A stretch of DNA of 23,413 nt from a virus, in the IMG/VR virus record IMGVR_UViG_3300031774_000160, positions 1 through 23,413 of that record; one strand, given 5' to 3'. Positions 311-12,200 of the stretch are shown here, piece by piece. The position numbers were made by a program, and so were the translations under genes. The notes under the pieces were generated by a model. It had not been told where the DNA came from and searched no databases. It saw only the letters and a program-made list of their open reading frames with translations. The first letter of the stretch is position 1. The number at the start of each line of letters is the position of its first letter.

Positions 311-724
311 CTAATAGGATCCTGCGTCTACTGTATCAGAGTCGCCACCAGCTGCGCCCACTATTATGGGTACCCACTGAAAAGTGCCTGTACTTGTTTC
401 TCTATAGACTTTGAATTGTTCATCATCGGTATCATACCACGTGTCTCCTTCCTCTATATTGGAACCAGTAGGAGCGGATGCACCGCGAAAATCTTGATCT
501 GCTAGTTGTTCTAATGCTGCTTGAACATTGGTAGCAGTTATTGTCTTATAAGGGGTAACAACAGAATTAGATGCTTGTTGATATTGAAACCCCACAGCAA
601 AGTTATTTACACTTACGCTAGTTATAGTATCAACTAAGGTAACGCCAATACTATTATTATTTGTTACAGATACATTAGTGACTTCTTCTGTAATTGCAAC
701 TTTTGTTCCGGAAGAATCTGGCAC
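311..724 (-). CDS. Fibre/tip accessory structural protein, 137 aa
   Basis: This is a small acidic protein rich in Ser, Thr, Val and Asn. The N-terminal half (about residues 1-50) is beta-rich and repetitive (VTNVSVTNNN, then ITSVSVNN). Residues about 62-75 read TITATNVQAALEQLAD, a motif common in phage fibre shafts and collars. About residues 78-106 contain GASAPTGSNIEEGDTWYDTD and then FKVYRE, a module widespread in phage tail fibre proteins. The C-terminus ends DSDTVDAGSY, resembling fibre 'DxDTxDG' termini. The start is GTG at 724, overlapping the previous stop as TAGTG, so it is probably translated by coupling. A role as fibre subunit or connector is inferred from these modules and from its place between the BppU-like gene and the fibre gene. 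No enzyme motif is visible. Confidence 0.65.
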   Translation of the reverse strand: MPDSSGTKVAITEEVTNVSVTNNNSIGVTLVDTITSVSVNNFAVGFQYQQASNSVVTPYKTITATNVQAALEQLADQDFRGASAPTGSNIEEGDTWYDTDDEQFKVYRETSTGTFQWVPIIVGAAGGDSDTVDAGSY

Positions 725-1062
725 TACCTTGTTACCTCTGGATTAATAGTAACACTTCCTTGTATTAATCTTTTTACAGTTGCGTCACCCGAAGTATGAA
801 TTTCCAGATCATATACATACCTACCTGCAGAAATACCAGAAGTAGTAGAAGATGACATTTCCATTTTCATTGTACCGGCAGAAGCATTAACTACGCTTAC
901 AGTAAAGCTTGCCGTCGCACTAGAGGAAGCATGGGTTGAGCGCATCTGAGCCCTGCCTGAGTAGCCAGTAAGATTCTTAGCTGTTCCTGACTCTGTAATT
1001 GTTAAGTCAATGGCAAAGTCGGAGCCTTGGTCGATGACTAAGTCATATGTAGCTGCTGTCAT
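724..1062 (-). CDS. BppU-like baseplate/fibre attachment protein, 112 aa
   Basis: The protein reads as one compact beta domain: YDLVIDQGSDFAIDLTI at residues 5-21, then LTGYSGRAQMR at about 31-41, then SAGRYVYDLEIH at about 78-89, ending VTINPEVTR. This order (strand-rich start, 'LTGYxxRAQxR', 'GxYxYDLEI', 'GxVxxxPEVTR') matches small phage proteins related to the N-terminal domain of baseplate upper protein BppU, which docks fibres on the tail tip. The family assignment is from memory of the pattern. The start is ATG at 1062 with GGAG eight bases upstream. It is the first gene after a strong promoter at 1082-1110, so the fibre block (this gene, the 137-aa gene, the partial fibre) can be transcribed separately from the rest of the tail. 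Its stop overlaps the next start (TAGTG). Confidence 0.7.
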   Translation of the reverse strand: MTAATYDLVIDQGSDFAIDLTITESGTAKNLTGYSGRAQMRSTHASSSATASFTVSVVNASAGTMKMEMSSSTTSGISAGRYVYDLEIHTSGDATVKRLIQGSVTINPEVTR

Positions 1063-1081: not shown

Positions 1082-1110
1082 ATTATATCTCAAAGGACAT
1101 ATTTAGTCAA
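1082..1110 (-). promoter_or_regulatory. Sigma70-type promoter for the fibre genes
   Basis: On the minus strand TTGACT (1110 to 1105) and TATAAT (1087 to 1082) are separated by exactly 17 bases. That is 11 of 12 consensus positions at the optimal spacing. An A-rich tract lies directly upstream (about 1112-1121 on the map), like an UP element. The expected start is near 1075, giving a leader of only about 13 bases that contains the GGAG ribosome binding site of the gene starting at 1062. It lies in the 68-base gap between the oxygenase and the BppU-like gene. Confidence 0.85.
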
Positions 1111-1130: not shown

Positions 1131-1694
1131 TTATGTAAAAGGAGGGCCGCTGTACCATTGTACAAGAGAGTACCTTGTTCCCTCATTTACTGGACTAACT
1201 TCATGCAACAAAAAAGACGGAAAGATAATAATAGTACCACGAGCATTAACTGTAGGTATTTCGTGAGTCCCCCAACAATCTTTTAATTTAAGATCTCCCC
1301 CAGAGTATTCACTAGGATCTGATAATTGTACTGTTACGGAAACTTTCCTCGTTATATTACTTTCAATATTATTATCTCTATGCCAAGTATAGAAATCATT
1401 TTTCTCATACACAGTGAACTGAGCTTTCTCACTTCCATTAAGATTAAATTGCCATTCTTGCTCATTCGTTTTGTGTACGTAGTAAAATAATAATCTATCT
1501 ACCCAAGAAGTTTTTTCAAACCAAGCAACCTTACCATCCCGAATCTTAGTATCTATGTCATTCAGATCAGACTTGGTAGATATGGTTGCTTGTTCCTGGG
1601 CTAAGAGTAGTCCTTGCTCTATTATCTTGTCACAAACTTCATTTGATAGCTCGCCCGACCAAATTCCTACGGGACTTATTTCGACTTGTTTCAC
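1131..1694 (-). CDS. 2OG-Fe(II) oxygenase, prolyl-4-hydroxylase-like, 187 aa
   Basis: This is a 2-oxoglutarate/Fe(II)-dependent dioxygenase, a family that uses 2-oxoglutarate and O2 to hydroxylate a substrate and releases succinate and CO2. The metal and co-substrate residues are all visible: His105 and Asp107 in FYTWHRDNN, distal His164 in IIIFPSFLLHEVSPV, and Arg174 in GTRYSLVQW for the 2OG carboxylate. The segment SEYSGGDLKL (129-138) is typical of the prolyl-4-hydroxylase/PKHD branch. The length is normal for a single-domain enzyme, and there is no signal peptide. The start is GTG at 1694 with AGGAAG about seven bases upstream, 14 bases after the stop of the J-like tip gene. Such enzymes are known in marine phages, mostly with unknown substrate. 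Here the neighbour encodes a collagen-like Gly-Pro-Pro stretch, so the tip protein is an attractive but unproven substrate. Confidence 0.88.
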   Translation of the reverse strand: MKQVEISPVGIWSGELSNEVCDKIIEQGLLLAQEQATISTKSDLNDIDTKIRDGKVAWFEKTSWVDRLLFYYVHKTNEQEWQFNLNGSEKAQFTVYEKNDFYTWHRDNNIESNITRKVSVTVQLSDPSEYSGGDLKLKDCWGTHEIPTVNARGTIIIFPSFLLHEVSPVNEGTRYSLVQWYSGPPFT

Positions 1695-1708
1695 TTAGTT
1701 ACTTCCTA

Positions 1709-4700
1709 CTACGCTAAATTTCCTATTTTTACTCTCAGAACCTGACTAGGACCGGGAGCACTCTCATATACTTTTATGTTACCACTAGCAGCGTCCAAAT
1801 GGATGCGGCTAGAATTAGCAGTTGTAGAAGAGATCTTTAACTGCTCCGTATCTATTGAATTGGCAGTAATATGAGTAGCTCCAATACTACCACTAACTAT
1901 CATATTTCCATGAATTGTAAAATCAACAGTTGCCCAAGTAGTCGTTTGATTGGCAGCTGGACCATTAGCTACATTAGTAACAACATATCCTTGCATAGCT
2001 GTTCCGTCAGTCCTTCTTACTAGTGCCTGATCATTTACTACTGGGTATCTACCTACATCACCATACCAAGTCGCTTCAGTAGGCGCCGCAGGAGTAGCAT
2101 TATTTGCTATAATAAACTGCCTAAAGAAGGAATAAGTGGCTCCAGGTCCAGGTGGTCCTGGGGTTGAAGCTCCAGGCGGTCCAGGTCCCCCAGGAGGTCC
2201 AGGGGTTGAAGGTCCAGGCGGTCCGGTCGGTCCAGTAAAGAGAAACTGTCCGGCAAAGGTAAAATTACCAGTACTAGCATCAAACCTCATATAGTTTGTA
2301 TTATTACCTACTGAAAAATCTCCAGCACCATCCATAAAGAAACCGGCTGTTGTACTTGTGAAAGAGGTTTTCTGAAAGCTATGAACTTTGGCTGCTTGTA
2401 AATTGGAATTATCAACATGAGTTTGAGACCCGACTTTAAGAGCACTACCTACATGCAATACATTACTAAAAGTATCGTTCGCTGTTATAGCATCTGCAGC
2501 TAAGGTACCATCTACAATTACACTACCATCAAAGTCATTTGTAACTACTGAGCTAAAGTCGGCCACGTTAATTTGTGAAACTTGAGACGACTTTCTTGCA
2601 ACATCCTGATATATTCTAGTTGCGATAGTACTACCACTAAAAATAGTAATTCTGTCATTAGGAACAATTCTTTTTACTAATGCCGTAGTATTAGTGTCCA
2701 TATGGCCGTCCTCTGTATTAAGAGGGCTAGCAATAACTAGATTGGCGACTGCTTGTGCTGTTGCATCAGTTAAAGTGCCTTTCCAAGCAGCAGCATGGGT
2801 TGAGCTCTCAAATTTGTAATGTTGGCCACTTCTCTGATTAAGTTGCATTTTAGTAAAAGTATAAACAAATTCAGCAAACTCATCGCCATCTTCATTATCT
2901 CTTAATGTAGCTGTAAAACCTCCTCTATTTATAGCTTTTGTATCTATAATATTGGCAGAGTTATCTAACTGCAAAGTGCCTGCATCTGCTCCAGATGCTA
3001 CGATTGTAACATCTCCAGAAGCTACTCCTCCTGTGTAGTCGCTGAAAATAATCTCGAATGTGTTTGCGGTGTTACCTGTAGCTGCGTAAGTCCATAGTGT
3101 ATCATCTGAAACAACTTTAAAAACAGAACTCCAATCATTATTAGCAACTCCATCCACCATATCAAACATATAAGTAAGATTACTAGCACTAGCTACTATT
3201 CCTTTACTATCTGTATTTCCAGGCGCTACAGGATTGGGCTGTAGTACCCACTCACTAGCAAGAATATCATCTGTTGCTCCATGTCCCTTTGCTAATGCAT
3301 ATACTCCCCAAACAGCGGCACTACCTACCTGTGCCTGCATTGTTCTATACCAGCCAGTACTACCTATTTGATCTCCGCTAATACTACCGGCGGATACACC
3401 CGTAATACCGCTTGCAAAGGTATAAGTAATGGTTGGAAATCCAGAAATTTGGGGAGGTAGTAAAGCATTTGGGGTTCCATGACCCGCGTTAAAAGCAGCT
3501 AAATCCTGAGCTGCATCATTTCTATATAAGAAGACGGTTGCTTGATTTTCAACATCGGACGGGTTAACTGTAGCGGCGCGCCCATTAGTATTTGGAAAAA
3601 ACAAGGATCTATAATGGGATGTTGTACCATTGGCTTTTTTTACTTCTTTAATATGTCTTGCCCAGTAATAATAAACAGTATTAGTAGTAGTTTCTACTTG
3701 TACATCTTCATAGTCCAGCACCCCTGTTTTTCCTTTCCAGCTATGTATTATATTAGAGTCTGTTAAAGAACCTACGGAGTCAGAGGTAAATCTATAAAGT
3801 ACTGTTTCCCACGCTGGTCCTGCCTTGATTGAAGTAGTAACTTTTAATGTAACCTTATTGGCTGATCCTGTAGCAGTTAAAGCCTCAGGATGGGCTGGAG
3901 TATGATCTCCCTCACCTCCTCCGTTACCTTCTCCGTCTTGAATACGATCAGTAACCTTCGAACCAATTATATAAGTGTTATCATCATGTTCTGTAGCTGT
4001 TACTTGTGTTAAACAATCCGCTGTATAACTTAAATTTGTTATTCTAAATACTTTATTATTATAACCAAATCTAGGGTAGGTTACTTTTATTAGCTCTCCC
4101 GCCACTAAAAGCACGCCTTGAGGTCCTATTCTAAAATTGATCTTTTTATTCGAGCGGGACTGTATTAAATATTGCTCAGCATTTATCCTAGCATTAAAAT
4201 AGTTAGAAATTAACGGAGATTTAAGATCCTTTTTCTTTGGAACTCCTCGATCTTGCTTTAAATATTCTGAATTGAAAAAAGTAACTGAACGATTATCATA
4301 TCTTATAGATGGATCTGGTATACTTATACTAACACTATTTGCGGAACCTTTTATACCGGCATCGTCAACACTAATAGCTCCAATGATTTCGTCCTCAGTA
4401 ATTATTCTAGGATCATCTGTAACATAGCCTGACTCATTAACAGCTTGTTCTACTGCTAAAACATACTTTCCTGCAGAATATCTTAAAATACCATTAAAAT
4501 GATCTAGTAAAGTATTTACATTTTGAAAAACAGGATCACTTGTTCTTAAAGCAGCATTACACTGATGTCTAGTTACCTCATCTTGGGATTGACTCTGCCA
4601 TCCCACATATCTCCAATACATAACATCATCAGAGTCATATATTGTATATCCACTATTTGTGGCAAGATTCGTTTTACTGTCCCAAGCTTTGACAATGGGG

Positions 4701-7700
4701 TTACCATCTGCACTTACACTATTAAGGCTTAATCCGTTTGTGGGACAGCTAAGGGTGATCGTGGAAGGACCAGCTCCGGATAGTTTAGTAAGATCAACAT
4801 TTGCCTGCACGTGAGTATCTGATACTACTGAGGCAAGTTCTGTGATACCGTTAGGAATTTTATGGACTTTACTTCTAAAAGTAGGTTCTGAGTTGACTGT
4901 GGTTGTATGTTGTTTCCAAAAAAGCTGCCCCTCGTTAATAGACTTAGTACTTCCATAAGTTTTCCACTTTTCCCACTTACTTATAAGTTTTCCAATACAA
5001 TCTTTAAAAACTACTTCATAGGAGACAGCACCATTGTCTCGAGTTCGTTGTGTAACACTTTCTACAGTACCCTGCCAGAATAGAGTGCTTCCCCCACCTG
5101 TAATAGAAGGCTTATATTGATATATATCCCCTACAGCCATATTGGTAGTGCTATTAGCAAAGACATGAATCTTAGAGCGAGTATCACAAGCACGAGCAGC
5201 TTCTTTAAAAGATTCAAGATCAATATCTTCTTCTAAATCTAATCCTCTACCAAATCGAGTATTAGTTAAGTAATCCAGTAATTGCATAGCAGGATTAATA
5301 GATACTTTTTTATCTCCTTTAGAAATAATTTTATAAGTATCTCCTGTATTAGCAATAAATTCTCCTGTTCCTGGTTCAAATACTTCCAAAGTAGAGGGAT
5401 CAGTACCGGTAGGATTATACGTATGGTATAAAGTAGCAGCAACACTTAACTTAACCGATTTATTATATGTTATTCTTCTATTAGCAATGTCTACCGAAAC
5501 TACTCTTGTTCCGTCTTCTATACTATGTATTTCCTCATTATAATTTCTTTCAACGGGATAGACAGATTTTGCAGGATCTTCATCTAATTTTGCCTTTATC
5601 GCAGTTAAAGTGTTAGTAGTAGCTTGATTATTATTGAAAGTAATAACGGTTCCTTCGCCTGGAGTTCCTGAAGCATCTGCAGGCATCTCAACACTGATAT
5701 AAGCAGCCACAGTACTTCCATTAATGCTAGCCGTAACATAAGGATAAGCTTGTGTTTGTGCACCTGCAACTGACGGAGTTAAGTCCCCAAATAAAACAAC
5801 TTTAGTACTGCCACCCTTATAACTTATTATTTGGGAATTATAAGTTTTAATAGTATCGTCAGCTAAGGTACGTGTGATCTCAATTCTTTGACCTTTATAA
5901 TAATCATCCACAGTAGAAGCACTATTTGCTAATTTAACAGCATTTGCTACTACAAGAATATCATTTGCTGCAGGAAGATTATCTGTTATTTGTGTATTTC
6001 CGATATTTATAAGTTTATTATTACTAGTATCAAAAGAACCGGGTTGAATATATGTACATGTTTTTTCAATATCAACAGTACCAGGTGTTTCAGTAGACTC
6101 TAAAACACTTATTAGTACACTTTCATTAGAAGCAGAATAAGTTAAAACATCTCTAAGGTCTCCAGAAGGTACAGTAATATCAACTCCACTACCTCCTGAG
6201 TTAGCAGCAACTATAAGCTTATTCGCATCAGTACTAGTAAGGCCGCCATTAAATTGACTTGAAACTATTCCTGGAATAGTTCCTGATTCACTTTGTGCAT
6301 CCCATGTTGATAGAAGTAGTTTATCATTCGCATTACTTAACTGTCCATCTTTTACAATCCAAAATTCAGTTGTAGTTATTCTAACATTACTAGCATTAAT
6401 TAAAGGATCTTTATTAAAACGGAACTTAGTTATGTCTTCTTCTCTGGCATTTGTGTAGACAGGCTTTGCCATAATAGTCACATCTTGAGCTAAAGCCGTA
6501 ATAGTACCAGAATCATCATAGTAAACATCTACCTTATCACCTACTTTAAAGGAGGCTTCTTGTGATATACTAGTGTTTCCTCCCGCATAGACAGGATTTT
6601 CCTTTTGCTCGTAAGACCAATCATAGTTATATTGCTCTACTTCCCTTCCTCTAACTACAAAGTCAATAGACGGTATACTAATATCGCCTTCAGCAACTTT
6701 GTATTTAGCAGCAACATAAGCCGTATCTAGTAATCTATGATTCGGTGTCCAGTATATATCCTCATTTTCTGCTCCTGCTTGTAGTTTAAATCCTTGATTC
6801 TGCACACCACCATCATTACTTAATGATTTATCTGCAATTCTAACCAACATATCATCGGCTCGTTGGTGAGGCCTACCCGCATGAAAATTAAAATCTCCTT
6901 TTATAGGGTATGTAATGGAAGTTCGTTTTTCGTGTGTAACTCCAGAGGCTTGGTTAATACTAGAGTCACTATTTCTATTTAATCCTCGAACTCGTAAAAT
7001 ATAATCAAGATTGGCAAGATTAGGGATACCAAATCTAAAGCTAGTCATACGTCCCATGAAATAATTATAACTACTATCGTATGTAAATGCGGGTAAAGAG
7101 CTTAAAGTATCACCTCTATCCATTCTGCCTTCGCAGAGGACATCTATAGTTTTATCAGTATTTTGTGTACTACGTGTGTCAGAATCATTCTCGCTTAAAC
7201 AAATTCGAGATTGGTCATCAATATACATATCATAAATGCCACCAATTTCTCCTTCGCAAATTGCATAAATAACATAAATCTCAGACGCATCCGAATATAA
7301 TGTATCTGCAAAAACAGGAATACTATCCGTTCTCTGAACACCGTAGATTACAGGTAGGTATTTAGCCTCTAAATTAAATCGTAGGTCAACATCTGCGTCA
7401 ACCATTTCCGTATACTCTACCATTCTATAACGTTTGAAGATAAAACCACTACTCTTCATTCTATATTTGGTTTCTGCTCGCTGATACTCTGCTATAATAT
7501 TTATAGCTTTTTCCGAGTGCATGAATCCTAAGTCACTACCATATTCGTATCTTACAAGCGCGTCTTCATCTACCCGTCCATTACTAGCAAGAGCTCTGTG
7601 CTGGGAGTCGGAAGTTAAACGACCGTTTACACGAACAAAATCACCCCAGTGGCTAGTCATACTCCATACTACTTGTGAACTTTTACTAACGTCTTCTACA

Positions 7701-8488
7701 ACTTTTGCTTTTGCAATAATTCCTTTAAAAATTAAATAAGGAGACCCAATAATAGCTCCTGTTGTTGGATTAATATGAGTTTTATATACGAATACTTCTC
7801 TATTTATGTAGCCTGCATATGCTCCGTTTTCTCCGGTAGCTTCATATTCTTCATAAAATACAGACTCATATTGATCAGCAGAATTAAAAACAACATAGGT
7901 ACCTGTTGTCTGAACATCTGTTGCGCCATCTAGTGCTTCACAAGTAATAGTTCTATCATTATTAGAAAAGGAAGTAATTATTGCTCTTTTATTGTGATAG
8001 TTAGGAGCATTCGACTTCTTAATAGTAATTTTATCGCCTTCTAGAAATCCTGATTGTTTCCAGTCATCTACAGTTCCGGCAAGGGTAAGCGTTACAGCAC
8101 TACCAATAGTATTGGCAGTAGTATATTTAATAGTTATTTGAGCATTTTCGGGGCTTCTACTGCTTAAACCTTCCGAAGCAATAGCAATACTCATATTAGT
8201 TGCTTTTGCCTCTATAGTCTCAGAGATTGTACCTACTTTCTTTACTCGATCCGCACGATATGTTTGTGTTCCGTTACTTACCCCTTTTACATTTTTTGAG
8301 CCATCATCCCATGAAATATCAACAGATGCATCGCTAATATAAGTATAATCTCGGGCATTTCTTGCAGGTTTAGAACTAGCAGTAGTTACTGCTCTTTCGA
8401 ATTTGATTAAATGGGCATATACAAAAGGATCTCCATTAATTAATGAAGTTCTTAATGCAGTACTGCCTAGGTCTCTTTCTGTGCTCAT
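1709..8488 (-). CDS. Tip attachment / host-specificity protein, J-like, 2259 aa, with collagen-like stretch
   Basis: This large tail-tip protein is expected to form the trimeric hub and central fibre that contacts the host. Residues 1 to about 350 resemble a minor tail protein fused in front of the J core. The J-like core starts near residue 378 (KYLPVIYGVQRTDSIPVF) and YAICEGEIGGIYDMYIDD, and is recognisable again near 1075 (LTNTRFGRGLDLEEDIDLES) and 1340-1460 (GKYVLAVEQA, NAEQYLIQSRSNKKINFRIG). A Gly-rich linker (about 1520-1530) leads into fibronectin-III-like and beta-rich segments. Residues 2086-2116 are Gly-Pro-rich collagen-like repeats. The last 140 residues hold a fibre-type end (IVSGSIGATHITANSIDTEQ). 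At 2259 aa it is about twice the length of lambda J (1132 aa), with much extra sequence between about 450 and 1050. The start is ATG at 8488, overlapping the previous stop as ATGA. Confidence 0.88.
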   Translation of the reverse strand: MSTERDLGSTALRTSLINGDPFVYAHLIKFERAVTTASSKPARNARDYTYISDASVDISWDDGSKNVKGVSNGTQTYRADRVKKVGTISETIEAKATNMSIAIASEGLSSRSPENAQITIKYTTANTIGSAVTLTLAGTVDDWKQSGFLEGDKITIKKSNAPNYHNKRAIITSFSNNDRTITCEALDGATDVQTTGTYVVFNSADQYESVFYEEYEATGENGAYAGYINREVFVYKTHINPTTGAIIGSPYLIFKGIIAKAKVVEDVSKSSQVVWSMTSHWGDFVRVNGRLTSDSQHRALASNGRVDEDALVRYEYGSDLGFMHSEKAINIIAEYQRAETKYRMKSSGFIFKRYRMVEYTEMVDADVDLRFNLEAKYLPVIYGVQRTDSIPVFADTLYSDASEIYVIYAICEGEIGGIYDMYIDDQSRICLSENDSDTRSTQNTDKTIDVLCEGRMDRGDTLSSLPAFTYDSSYNYFMGRMTSFRFGIPNLANLDYILRVRGLNRNSDSSINQASGVTHEKRTSITYPIKGDFNFHAGRPHQRADDMLVRIADKSLSNDGGVQNQGFKLQAGAENEDIYWTPNHRLLDTAYVAAKYKVAEGDISIPSIDFVVRGREVEQYNYDWSYEQKENPVYAGGNTSISQEASFKVGDKVDVYYDDSGTITALAQDVTIMAKPVYTNAREEDITKFRFNKDPLINASNVRITTTEFWIVKDGQLSNANDKLLLSTWDAQSESGTIPGIVSSQFNGGLTSTDANKLIVAANSGGSGVDITVPSGDLRDVLTYSASNESVLISVLESTETPGTVDIEKTCTYIQPGSFDTSNNKLINIGNTQITDNLPAANDILVVANAVKLANSASTVDDYYKGQRIEITRTLADDTIKTYNSQIISYKGGSTKVVLFGDLTPSVAGAQTQAYPYVTASINGSTVAAYISVEMPADASGTPGEGTVITFNNNQATTNTLTAIKAKLDEDPAKSVYPVERNYNEEIHSIEDGTRVVSVDIANRRITYNKSVKLSVAATLYHTYNPTGTDPSTLEVFEPGTGEFIANTGDTYKIISKGDKKVSINPAMQLLDYLTNTRFGRGLDLEEDIDLESFKEAARACDTRSKIHVFANSTTNMAVGDIYQYKPSITGGGSTLFWQGTVESVTQRTRDNGAVSYEVVFKDCIGKLISKWEKWKTYGSTKSINEGQLFWKQHTTTVNSEPTFRSKVHKIPNGITELASVVSDTHVQANVDLTKLSGAGPSTITLSCPTNGLSLNSVSADGNPIVKAWDSKTNLATNSGYTIYDSDDVMYWRYVGWQSQSQDEVTRHQCNAALRTSDPVFQNVNTLLDHFNGILRYSAGKYVLAVEQAVNESGYVTDDPRIITEDEIIGAISVDDAGIKGSANSVSISIPDPSIRYDNRSVTFFNSEYLKQDRGVPKKKDLKSPLISNYFNARINAEQYLIQSRSNKKINFRIGPQGVLLVAGELIKVTYPRFGYNNKVFRITNLSYTADCLTQVTATEHDDNTYIIGSKVTDRIQDGEGNGGGEGDHTPAHPEALTATGSANKVTLKVTTSIKAGPAWETVLYRFTSDSVGSLTDSNIIHSWKGKTGVLDYEDVQVETTTNTVYYYWARHIKEVKKANGTTSHYRSLFFPNTNGRAATVNPSDVENQATVFLYRNDAAQDLAAFNAGHGTPNALLPPQISGFPTITYTFASGITGVSAGSISGDQIGSTGWYRTMQAQVGSAAVWGVYALAKGHGATDDILASEWVLQPNPVAPGNTDSKGIVASASNLTYMFDMVDGVANNDWSSVFKVVSDDTLWTYAATGNTANTFEIIFSDYTGGVASGDVTIVASGADAGTLQLDNSANIIDTKAINRGGFTATLRDNEDGDEFAEFVYTFTKMQLNQRSGQHYKFESSTHAAAWKGTLTDATAQAVANLVIASPLNTEDGHMDTNTTALVKRIVPNDRITIFSGSTIATRIYQDVARKSSQVSQINVADFSSVVTNDFDGSVIVDGTLAADAITANDTFSNVLHVGSALKVGSQTHVDNSNLQAAKVHSFQKTSFTSTTAGFFMDGAGDFSVGNNTNYMRFDASTGNFTFAGQFLFTGPTGPPGPSTPGPPGGPGPPGASTPGPPGPGATYSFFRQFIIANNATPAAPTEATWYGDVGRYPVVNDQALVRRTDGTAMQGYVVTNVANGPAANQTTTWATVDFTIHGNMIVSGSIGATHITANSIDTEQLKISSTTANSSRIHLDAASGNIKVYESAPGPSQVLRVKIGNLA
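2154..2224 (-). repeat. Two 29-base direct repeats, 42-base period, encoding the collagen-like stretch
   Basis: The copies at 2154-2182 and 2196-2224 differ at two of 29 positions and lie 42 bases (14 codons) apart, so they keep the reading frame. They encode the repeated piece S/A-x-T-P-G-P-P-G inside the J-like protein (residues 2086-2116). In-frame repeats of this kind can expand or contract by slippage or recombination, so the length of the Gly-Pro stretch may vary between relatives. Confidence 0.85.
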
Positions 8489-9210
8489 AGGTATTCTTCC
8501 AGTTTTAGGGAAAAGGAATATAGGTTATCCTTATTTAAAGTATACGAAGCTAGAGGTTTGGGAAGAACTACTTTAATAAGAGGTTCACTAAACTTAATAG
8601 TTTCTTCATCCGAAACGGCCTTAGATAAAGAGGGGCTCAATGTTAGCCTAAAGTTATTAGCATCGGGAATGGCTGTTTGATTGTCTGAGGGGGTCTCTAC
8701 TCTAGTAATTAGATAAGCTTTTGTATGATTGGTGAATGTGCACATATCTCCAGGAGTAGGATACCCCATACTACCTATAGAATAGGCTGTGGCGCCTCCT
8801 GTTGTATTAATTTCTACCATAACTTCGGATTTAGCTGCTGCAACTGCTCCATTAACTCGTGGTGTATAATTAGTATTTACTACTGTAGTGTCCCAAGTAG
8901 AATTTTGAGAAGCCCTATACTGAGGTAGTGACACAAAAAACGGAGTAAGTGGTCCTTGTTTTCCTAGTAAGAAAGTGAATACAGGCTCGAACTCTTCTCT
9001 TGTCATTGGATTATAATTAATATCAATATTCCATTTTTGTCCTGCAATGCTTCTTGCAATTAGTCGTTGAGAATTAGTTCTAGTTGACAACACTTTATGA
9101 CTGTTATCTAACTTTATCTGTGCGAAGCCGGGCCCGTAACTACCGCTTGCATGATCTCCACCACCACTTATTCTGTAGTTAGGATCTGGTAATATTTCTT
9201 GTAATGCCAT
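8485..9210 (-). CDS. Distal tail / tail-tip assembly protein, 241 aa
   Basis: The gene lies between the tape measure and the J-like tip gene, the place of the distal tail and minor tail proteins (lambda M/L region). Residues about 35-90 (HKVLSTRTNSQRLIARSIAG, KWNIDINYNPMTREEFEPVF) followed by FLLGKQGPLTPFFVSLPQYR look like the first beta-domain of tail-tip ring proteins, which form the adaptor between tube and hub. The C-terminus (VVLPKPLASYTLNKDNLYSF, SLKLEEYL) returns to the same beta-fold style, and the middle (about 105-200) looks like an inserted domain. The start is ATG at 9210 with AGGAG about seven bases upstream. The stop overlaps the next start (ATGA). Function is inferred from gene order and general fold pattern, not from a catalytic motif. 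Confidence 0.65.
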   Translation of the reverse strand: MALQEILPDPNYRISGGGDHASGSYGPGFAQIKLDNSHKVLSTRTNSQRLIARSIAGQKWNIDINYNPMTREEFEPVFTFLLGKQGPLTPFFVSLPQYRASQNSTWDTTVVNTNYTPRVNGAVAAAKSEVMVEINTTGGATAYSIGSMGYPTPGDMCTFTNHTKAYLITRVETPSDNQTAIPDANNFRLTLSPSLSKAVSDEETIKFSEPLIKVVLPKPLASYTLNKDNLYSFSLKLEEYL

Positions 9211-9214
9211 TATA

Positions 9215-12200
9215 TTATCTCCTGCTCACCCCGTCTGACACGACCGGTGAAGTATATATAGACTCATCAATATCTTCCATAAATTCTTCTCCATAAGAAT
9301 TTGCTGCCTGTCTAAGCATTCCAATTATATTTCCTTGCTGTTCTTCAAGTACTGACTCTACGCCTGTTGCATCAATAGTATTAATATTAAAGTTTACAAC
9401 TCCACCACCGCCAGTCATTGCTGCAGTATCATCTGCAGGTACTATAGTACCGGGGCGATCTGGCATAAATAACTCAGGACCCTGCTCTCCTACTATATAA
9501 CCCATATTTCCACCGGCTGCTCTATGTCGAGAACCATAGAAAGCTTTTCTAAAGTTCTCCGGTCCGCCGGTTCCTTGTGCACCTCTGAAGTAAGCTAATT
9601 CTCCTCCAGCATTTTGAGATTTTGAAATATCTACTGAATCCCGTCGTTGTCCTACTGCTACCGATGACGGTCCACCAGCTCCTGCTGAAGGAGTAGACGC
9701 TCCGCCTTGGTAAGAAGTACCTGCAATTACTGCTAATTGAGCAGCACCTAATGCAAGAGTTACCCCATTCAACATAGCAAGGGTGGATCCAAATACAGCG
9801 GGTCCGGCCGGGCCTGCAAATTTAGCTACTGCTGCTGCGGTGGCTACGTTTGACATCATAGCAGTAGCTATATCAATAACGGCCATAGCCATTTGTATCT
9901 TCTTATTTCGTTCAAAAGCTTTTTTCTTTGTTGCTTCTTTTTTAGCTTCTAAAGCTTTAATTTTGTCTACAGATGCTTTGGATTTTCCATCCCTCTTTTT
10001 CTCTGCCTCAATCTCTTGATCAATGGCGGCAATCCTTGCATTAGTAGAGGCATTCATAATATCAGATACTGCACTTAAAGTCTGTTTTGCTGCACCAAGA
10101 ACTGCTGCCATCCTCTCCGTTTTATCACCAGTCCTAGCAAAAGTCTCAGCAACGCCTGACCATGCACTTCCAACAGTAATCGCTCCTTGAGTTGCGGCTG
10201 CGATAAGCTCTCCTTCAGGACCTAATTGTTTAAGAGACTCTAGCATAGGATTTACTGTACTTTGAAGAGCTGCGAGCTGTTCTTTTCCAACTAACTGAGC
10301 TTGTTTTTTAGTACCTTCTTGACCTGTCTTTTCATCATCTTCAGTACCAAACTGTCCTTCTGTACCCAAAACCTTTGCTGCGTCTTTTCTTATTAGTAGA
10401 TTTTCTTCAGCATCCTTTCCTTGAGGATCCATGAATTCTTGTTTTACTCGCTGTAATAATGCGGCGGCTTCTTCCCTAAGACTACTTATAGCTGCTATTC
10501 TTTGTGCTTCGATACTAGCTATCATTGCATCTTCGGAACTTGTTAAAGCTGATATTGCTCCTAATAGTGATTCGCCCTGTTCTGTCTCGGCATACTCTGC
10601 ATCAGTCAAATTCATTTTTGCTGCTTGTTCTTTAGCTAAAACATCTAGTCGTGCTTTCAACACTACCATTTCTGCTTTTGCAATAGCTTCCTTTAATTTA
10701 AATTCTTGATTAATTATCTCTACTCGATCTTCGAGTGTTTTTCCTTCTTCCTGAAATTGTTTTGCATACTGTTGAGCTGCGCTAGGCTCGGCATCACTTC
10801 GTCTACTATCTGCACGATTTGCACTTCTAATGGCATTCATTCCTGTTGTGTTTTCAGCCTCATTTTGAGCTTTTTTACTATCAAGTATCTTCTGATGAGC
10901 GGCAGCGATTGCTTGCTCAACAGATAAAGTGTTCTCTGCTAGCATTAGCTTTTCTTTGTCCTGTCGTAATCCCTCATTATTGAGAAATGTATGATGCGCT
11001 TTTACATTAGTTATTTCCCTTTGTAAATTCAGAAGATGGGTTTGTATATCTGCGTCCTCAATATTTGCAGAATTTGCCATCGCGAACTCATTCCTTTTAT
11101 TTATAAGCGTTTGTAGTGTTTCGTTTTGTATTATCTTCTCTTGATCTAATACATCTTTCCATTGATTTCCTACTAAATTTCTATTTTTAAAGAGTTGTAG
11201 TTCTGATTTTGCTCTGCTTATTTTACCTTTGCTAAGCTTCTCTTCCTTCTGTATAAGTTTGAGGTCTTTCGCTCTTAATTTTAGCTTCGCATGTACCAAT
11301 TTAAAAAGATCCTCTTCATAATTACTACCTTCAGCTGCTGCCTGCTGACTTAACTTTTCAAATCCTATTATTTTCTTTAAAGCCGCAGGCATTTTCGCTA
11401 GTATTTCTAGTCTATCATTACTACTATCTTGTTTACCTGCTTGTTCCATAACTAAATTAAGATTATCAAACTGTGTAACTATATCATCAACACTGGTTTT
11501 TAGCTTATTTGCGGAAACAAATTTTTCTGTTGCTTCTTTTGCGTCATTAAGTCCTATAACTAATTGCTCTAAGGGTCCTATTGATTCTTGTAACTTTACG
11601 GTGAGAGCCTCGCCTAAAATTTGTGCTGTTGTTTCAAGCATATTATTTAGGCCCCCGGTTTCTATTTTCTTAATCTGCGCGGCAGAAACTCCTGCATCTG
11701 TGGCTAATTGAGCAAGCTCCTCCCTGGTAGTACCTGCTGATCGCATCAAAGCATCTAAACCGTCCCTAAAGGGCTGAATATTATCACCAAACATTCTCCA
11801 ACCAGTTCCTTCTCCGGGTTTTAACTTCTGTAAATTCTCTCCTACGCCTCTAATAATATTACCGAGCGCTAAGTATTTTTGTGAAACTCCAGATATAGTG
11901 CTTGATTGCCCCTTCATGAACTTATCAACTTCATCTAAACTTTCCGAATATTCTTTCATGGCTTCAGAAGCTTTTCTAGTATCTGCTTCATATTGTTTTT
12001 GCGCATCGCTCTTCATCATTTCCATGAGTTTCTTAAGAAGTGACCATGCAATTCCAACAGCAGCAATAATTTGTCCGATAATAGGTATTGCGGTTAAGAA
12101 GGCAGTTCCAAGTACACGAACTCCTAATGCCGCTTTAGTTGCAGCATTTCCTAAAGTAATTTTTGCTTTAGTTAATCCTGAAGTTCCTTTCTTTGCTTTT

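Follow-up and report, generated by a model that had tools for sequence, protein, structure and literature searches.

The 2OG-Fe(II) oxygenase encoded directly behind the tail-tip gene of this marine phage is probably a prolyl hydroxylase whose substrate is the collagen-like stretch in the preceding tip protein, a reading that draws on sequence comparison and structure prediction. As far as the sequences go, the J-like tip gene and the oxygenase gene are adjacent, lie upstream of a separate fibre-gene promoter and have been gained or lost together.

The window analysed here is a 23.4-kb virus record. Its minus strand carries a siphovirus-like late region with head, tail tube, tape measure and distal tail protein genes, followed by a 2,259-aa J-like protein, the oxygenase, an LtfC-like chaperone and more fibre-region genes. 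The J-like tail-tip/hub protein (1709-8488, minus strand) is assigned by homology and position: its body is homologous to the ‘central tail fiber J/baseplate hub’ proteins of T5-like phages (28-33% coverage, 30-33% identity, E down to 5e-54), and a distal tail protein of PHROG_1302 precedes it. The oxygenase gene (1131-1694, minus strand; 187 aa) begins with GTG, a start supported because the alignments of relatives begin at that residue, and by its coordinates 14 bases separate it from the J stop codon, as the first-pass annotation had said; in three related loci (L002, L012 and L016) the two genes abut or overlap. Next come the LtfC-like protein (L-shaped tail fibre assembly; 724-1062, minus strand; 112 aa) and a 137-aa protein of unassigned function (311-724, minus strand); an ORF of 136-138 aa, matched by size and position, also lies directly behind the LtfC-like gene in L002-L004. 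The chaperone and fibre genes are preceded by a conserved sigma-70-type promoter, TTGACT-17-TATAAT (1082-1110, minus strand), which hardly varies among 12 aligned loci from divergent phages, with the enzyme present or absent. The promoter is thus real and precedes the LtfC-like gene, so that the oxygenase belongs to the J side, upstream of it; the earlier placement of the enzyme on the tail side of a fibre promoter is confirmed.

The collagen-like stretch, the predicted substrate, spans residues 2086-2116 of the J-like protein (2141-2233, minus strand) and reads GPTGPPGPSTPGPPGGPGPPGASTPGPPGPG. Gly or Pro occupies 25 of its 31 positions, compared with a maximum of 14 over 2,000 shuffles of the J-like protein, which bears out the Gly-Pro stretch first reported from the letters alone. 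With Gly at every third residue plus Pro it is collagen-like, and it forms an imperfect Gly-X-Y run made of in-register triplet runs of 3 and 4 with two ‘TP’ interruptions; that it is short and interrupted counts against the reading that we prefer. The C-terminal part beyond it (1709-2140, minus strand) comprises a small predicted domain (approximately residues 2118-2190) and the conserved end LRVKIGNL, which is also present in relatives that lack the oxygenase. Monomer prediction of the C-terminal part was poor (pLDDT 49.6), and a search for its cultured relatives found none. In one relative, L100, the J C-terminus lies in a different frame from the J body (one ORF ends at 4494, the other spans 4344-4928), possibly through a frameshift or an assembly error. 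Like the window J, phage collagen-like fibre proteins such as prophage EPclA are trimeric phage proteins with a Gly-X-Y stretch, but they were described without a preference for proline in the Y position and without a prolyl hydroxylase, in a paper that held bacteria and viruses to lack the prolyl hydroxylases that collagen needs (PMC3368898).

The oxygenase matches Pfam PF13640 (E 9.5e-17). The residues singled out in the first-pass annotation, the iron triad His105, Asp107 and His164 and the basic 2OG ligand Arg174, are invariant across 36 family members, as are Tyr96 and Tyr102. The two Tyr, with His105 and Asp107, make up the strand motif Y-x5-Y-x2-H-x-D, whose spacing is identical in 5c5t, 5hv0 and 2jig, whereas PiuC carries Phe at the P4H-type Tyr. 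An AlphaFold2 model (pLDDT 91.8) has a P4H-like double-stranded beta-helix and aligns with prolyl hydroxylases across 160-182 residues; its structural matches are the Pseudomonas putida P4H (top, Z 19.5), the PBCV-1 viral collagen prolyl hydroxylase (vCPH; Z 19.1), PHD2 (Z approximately 19), PiuC (17.9) and an algal P4H (17.6). The predicted fold and the motif favour a prolyl-hydroxylase-type enzyme; they do not prove its substrate. The breadth of this match, the position of the gene in a tail-tip unit and the lack of any replication gene in the window make it highly improbable that the protein is an AlkB-like enzyme of nucleic-acid repair or modification, even though P4H-domain genes of T4-like cyanophages, which adjoin uvsX/uvsY in some of them, have been suggested to function in DNA repair (PMC2984593) and relatives of the window oxygenase adjoin helicase or DNA polymerase genes.

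Sequence and structure rank the relatives differently. In profile searches the closest solved proteins are PKHD-type PiuC/YbiX, best in the catalytic half, followed by PBCV-1, algal, Dictyostelium and Bacillus prolyl hydroxylases. We nevertheless rejected membership of the PiuC/PKHD family: the best of four NCBIfam models scores 70.9 bits against a cut-off of 143, and the P4H Tyr is replaced by Phe in PiuC/YbiX, with which the alignment begins only at residue 92. Among these enzymes PiuC/YbiX and PHD2 bind 2OG through Arg, and collagen-type P4Hs, the PBCV-1 enzyme included, through Lys. The window oxygenase has Arg174 at the His+10 position in place of Lys and is therefore no collagen-type P4H in the strict sense. 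Of the known systems, PBCV-1 vCPH (PDB 5c5t) is likewise viral and shares the fold (165 residues, 2.4 Å), the motif and a sequence match in the N-terminal part and core; it differs in coming from a virus of eukaryotic algae and in having no known action on the product of an adjacent tail-tip gene. The bacterial P4H of Bacillus anthracis (5hv0), deposited as a procollagen-proline dioxygenase, is remote from the window enzyme (2.3e-3, profile). The best phage family match is to the 2OG-Fe(II) oxygenases of PHROG_61 (E 1e-34), which differ in being classed as auxiliary/moron genes, many of them in other contexts. Bacterial genomes scanned with the J-linked oxygenases yielded no relatives.

Comparisons across phages link the enzyme to the stretch. 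First, we surveyed relatives with the LtfC-like chaperone gene, the next gene after the oxygenase, as a neutral anchor; because the scan used this gene, the sample is independent of both enzyme and collagen. Among 100 loci with sufficient upstream sequence, six carry an oxygenase between the tip gene and the chaperone. A collagen-like stretch, defined as a 24-aa window with at least 5 in-register Gly and Gly plus Pro of at least 12, is present in 4 of the 6 enzyme-positive and 4 of the 94 enzyme-negative loci (Fisher p 2.5e-4), and the association persists after clustering at 95-80% chaperone identity (p 4.8e-4 to 3.6e-3). PG-rich tips (at least 3 PG dipeptides per 30 aa, a criterion picked after part of the data had been seen) separate the two groups further, 4 of 6 versus 1 of 94 (p 1.9e-5). 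The two enzyme-positive loci that fall short of the definition carry short Pro-Gly stretches, GPPGPPGAASTVPGPPGG and NGQDGDNGQPGGPG. Enzyme and stretch thus co-occur in relatives far above expectation, and among related phages the enzyme is not equally common beside tips without the stretch, the outcome that the first-pass annotation had named as a refutation. Along the chaperone tree there are about five switches between presence and absence of the enzyme, by gain or loss, and the nearest enzyme-less sisters (chaperone 88-95% identical) lack the stretch; the pairs compared were window/L098, L117/L140, L126/L124, L129/L139 and L202/L201. Relocation of the enzyme to another site in these phages was rejected, since in a search of enzyme-less contigs of up to 83 kb PF13640 turned up elsewhere only in L138. 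The sample is small, with only six enzyme-positive loci and about five events in the unbiased set, and the majority of the relatives of the oxygenase lie in other contexts with no collagen neighbour. When bacterial genomes were scanned with the chaperone, only two contigs were recovered, the gammaproteobacterial single-cell contig AG-333-E20 and a contig of the Betaproteobacteria TMED41 bin, which hint at possible hosts of the phage group.

Second, enzyme and stretch appear to move between otherwise different tip proteins. The closest enzyme found, 67% identical to the window oxygenase, lies in L002 beside a J protein whose body is unrelated to the window J (22%) and whose last approximately 280 residues are homologous to it. 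One clade holds 10 of the 11 J-linked enzymes; the eleventh, in L117, is a separate lineage that occupies the same slot between the J and LtfC-like genes, behind a J protein with 234 Gly-X-Y triplets. Downstream of its chaperone, L117 has a second collagen-like ORF (7732-10339; 869 aa, 47 triplets) with no Y-position proline. Two further loci, L110 and L172, have collagen-like J proteins without an oxygenase and carry in the slot glycosyltransferase-type genes (3779-4930, PF00534, E 2.6e-15; and 3897-4955, PF05159, E 2.4e-8, respectively), and a weak acetyltransferase match lies near the slot in the L189/L183 group. Because of these oxygenases, glycosyltransferase-type genes and the weak acetyltransferase match, the slot may be a site for tip-modifying enzymes. 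We tentatively suggest that phages repeatedly build cassettes of a collagen-like fibre plus a modifying enzyme, and that in this slot 2OG prolyl hydroxylases, glycosyltransferases and perhaps an acetyltransferase-like protein take each other's place beside collagen-like tips; the cultured cyanophages P-SSM2 and ACG-2014f hold comparable pairs. Elsewhere, L341 (26000-31000 of G018) encodes a very Gly-rich 335-aa protein with a 2OG oxygenase of the family a few genes later and has no enzyme in the slot. L005 and L007 contain approximately nine tandem ORFs of 165-215 aa (around 4093-9285), several with an HxD...H...R pattern; these are probably 2OG oxygenases adjoining structural genes, and have no collagen-like neighbour.

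Third, we scanned viral contigs independently for DNA encoding GPPGPPGPPG, with 120 stretches among the matches listed. Six oxygenases occur among these matches, five of them at a distance of 0-1 genes from the GPP-encoding gene (L234, L235, L254, L267 and L316); the chance of such closeness is approximately 0.005, based on four GPP loci with an automatically called gene map. These adjacent oxygenases fall into two subfamilies. That of L234 and L235 differs from the window subfamily and has Lys or a Lys/Arg pair near the His+10 position, and the closest solved relative of the L235 enzyme is the B. anthracis P4H (1.3e-11). Most GPP-repeat genes among the matches listed have no nearby oxygenase, and the enzyme is therefore not required for such repeats. 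In the cultured Prochlorococcus phage P-SSM2 (24237-28270; L330/L339), a gene annotated ‘piuC’ lies two genes behind the collagen-like fibre genes PSSM2_027/028, which together hold 128 Gly-X-Y triplets with 27 Y-position prolines, and 18 GPP triplets in PSSM2_028. A pairing similar to that of P-SSM2 is seen in the marine virus AG-345-F15 and in L235. In Synechococcus phage ACG-2014f, PiuC shares a single block with a glycosyltransferase and a protein with collagen repeats. At the oxygenase loci of the cultured phages HTVC033P, HTVC008M, S-CAM8 and P-SSM7, no collagen neighbour was found.

Exchange of a cassette would also be predicted if the enzyme and the C-terminal J segment travelled together as mere neighbours and the true target lay elsewhere, for example in a host protein such as EF-Tu, the target of the P. 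putida P4H, or in the iron/2OG role proposed for PiuC. The top structural match was indeed solved bound to EF-Tu, the nearest solved protein by sequence is PiuC/PKHD, and phages commonly carry members of the family outside fibre regions. We nevertheless regard this explanation as unlikely: the L117 lineage arrived independently next to a collagen-like J, unrelated phages show such adjacency with a P4H from a different subfamily, sisters without the enzyme are also without the stretch, and the scores reach only half of the NCBIfam PKHD/PiuC cut-offs. The initial proposal that the phage hydroxylates proline in its own tip is accordingly upheld in part, with co-occurrence, fold and motif in its favour and, against it, the sequence proximity to PiuC, the many relatives without collagen and the enzyme-linked stretch of L014.

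This last stretch bears on the residue that might be modified. All enzyme-linked stretches share just one residue besides Gly, namely proline. It occupies the Y position in 53 of 181 triplets (29%) of the main J-linked clade, compared with 0-3% for the long phage collagens at other places in the loci. The enzyme-linked stretch of L014, however, has 25 Gly-X-Y triplets with proline in the X position only and none in Y, and proline occupies Y positions in certain J proteins that have no enzyme beside them (6 of 9 triplets in L173); these two cases led us to reject a strict rule that the enzyme occurs only with Y-position proline. The tip protein could instead be modified at X-position proline (3-hydroxylation), at lysine, at Asp/Asn or at a residue of the domain that follows the stretch. 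L014 would fit such a choice, as would the L117 stretch, which is rich in Y-position lysine, and lysyl hydroxylases, prolyl 3-hydroxylases and PHDs all bind 2OG via Arg. Given that proline alone is shared by every enzyme-linked stretch and is enriched in the Y position in the main clade, we consider modification at these other sites quite improbable.

If the oxygenase is the prolyl hydroxylase that we favour, it would use 2OG, Fe(II) and O2 to hydroxylate prolines in the nascent Gly-Pro segment ahead of J trimer assembly, probably with X-Pro-Gly as the preferred site. The resulting hydroxyproline would stabilize the three-chain segment or alter its surface; hydroxylation of the tip, stabilization of a triple helix and altered host contact are all inferences.

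Marine phages often carry 2OG oxygenases as auxiliary genes. One survey matched most of them only to a PiuC/iron protein and called their relevance unclear (PMC13184970); in another, the use of prolyl 4-hydroxylase by viruses was termed ‘cryptic’ (PMC9301287). Our search of the open-access literature, with subscription journals outside its scope, found no description of a phage prolyl hydroxylase or 2OG oxygenase paired with a collagen-like tip. Algal viruses already provide examples of viral prolyl hydroxylases; a phage tip as the adjacent and probable substrate has, as far as searched, no precedent. The association offers a concrete candidate substrate, the phage’s own tip protein, and P-SSM2 is a cultured phage in which virion hydroxyproline is measurable. 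The co-variation of enzyme and stretch across related phages suggests chemical self-modification of phage fibres. If such cassettes do recur, phages would possess a post-translational modification system for collagen, and many phage 2OG oxygenases that now lack a substrate would gain one.
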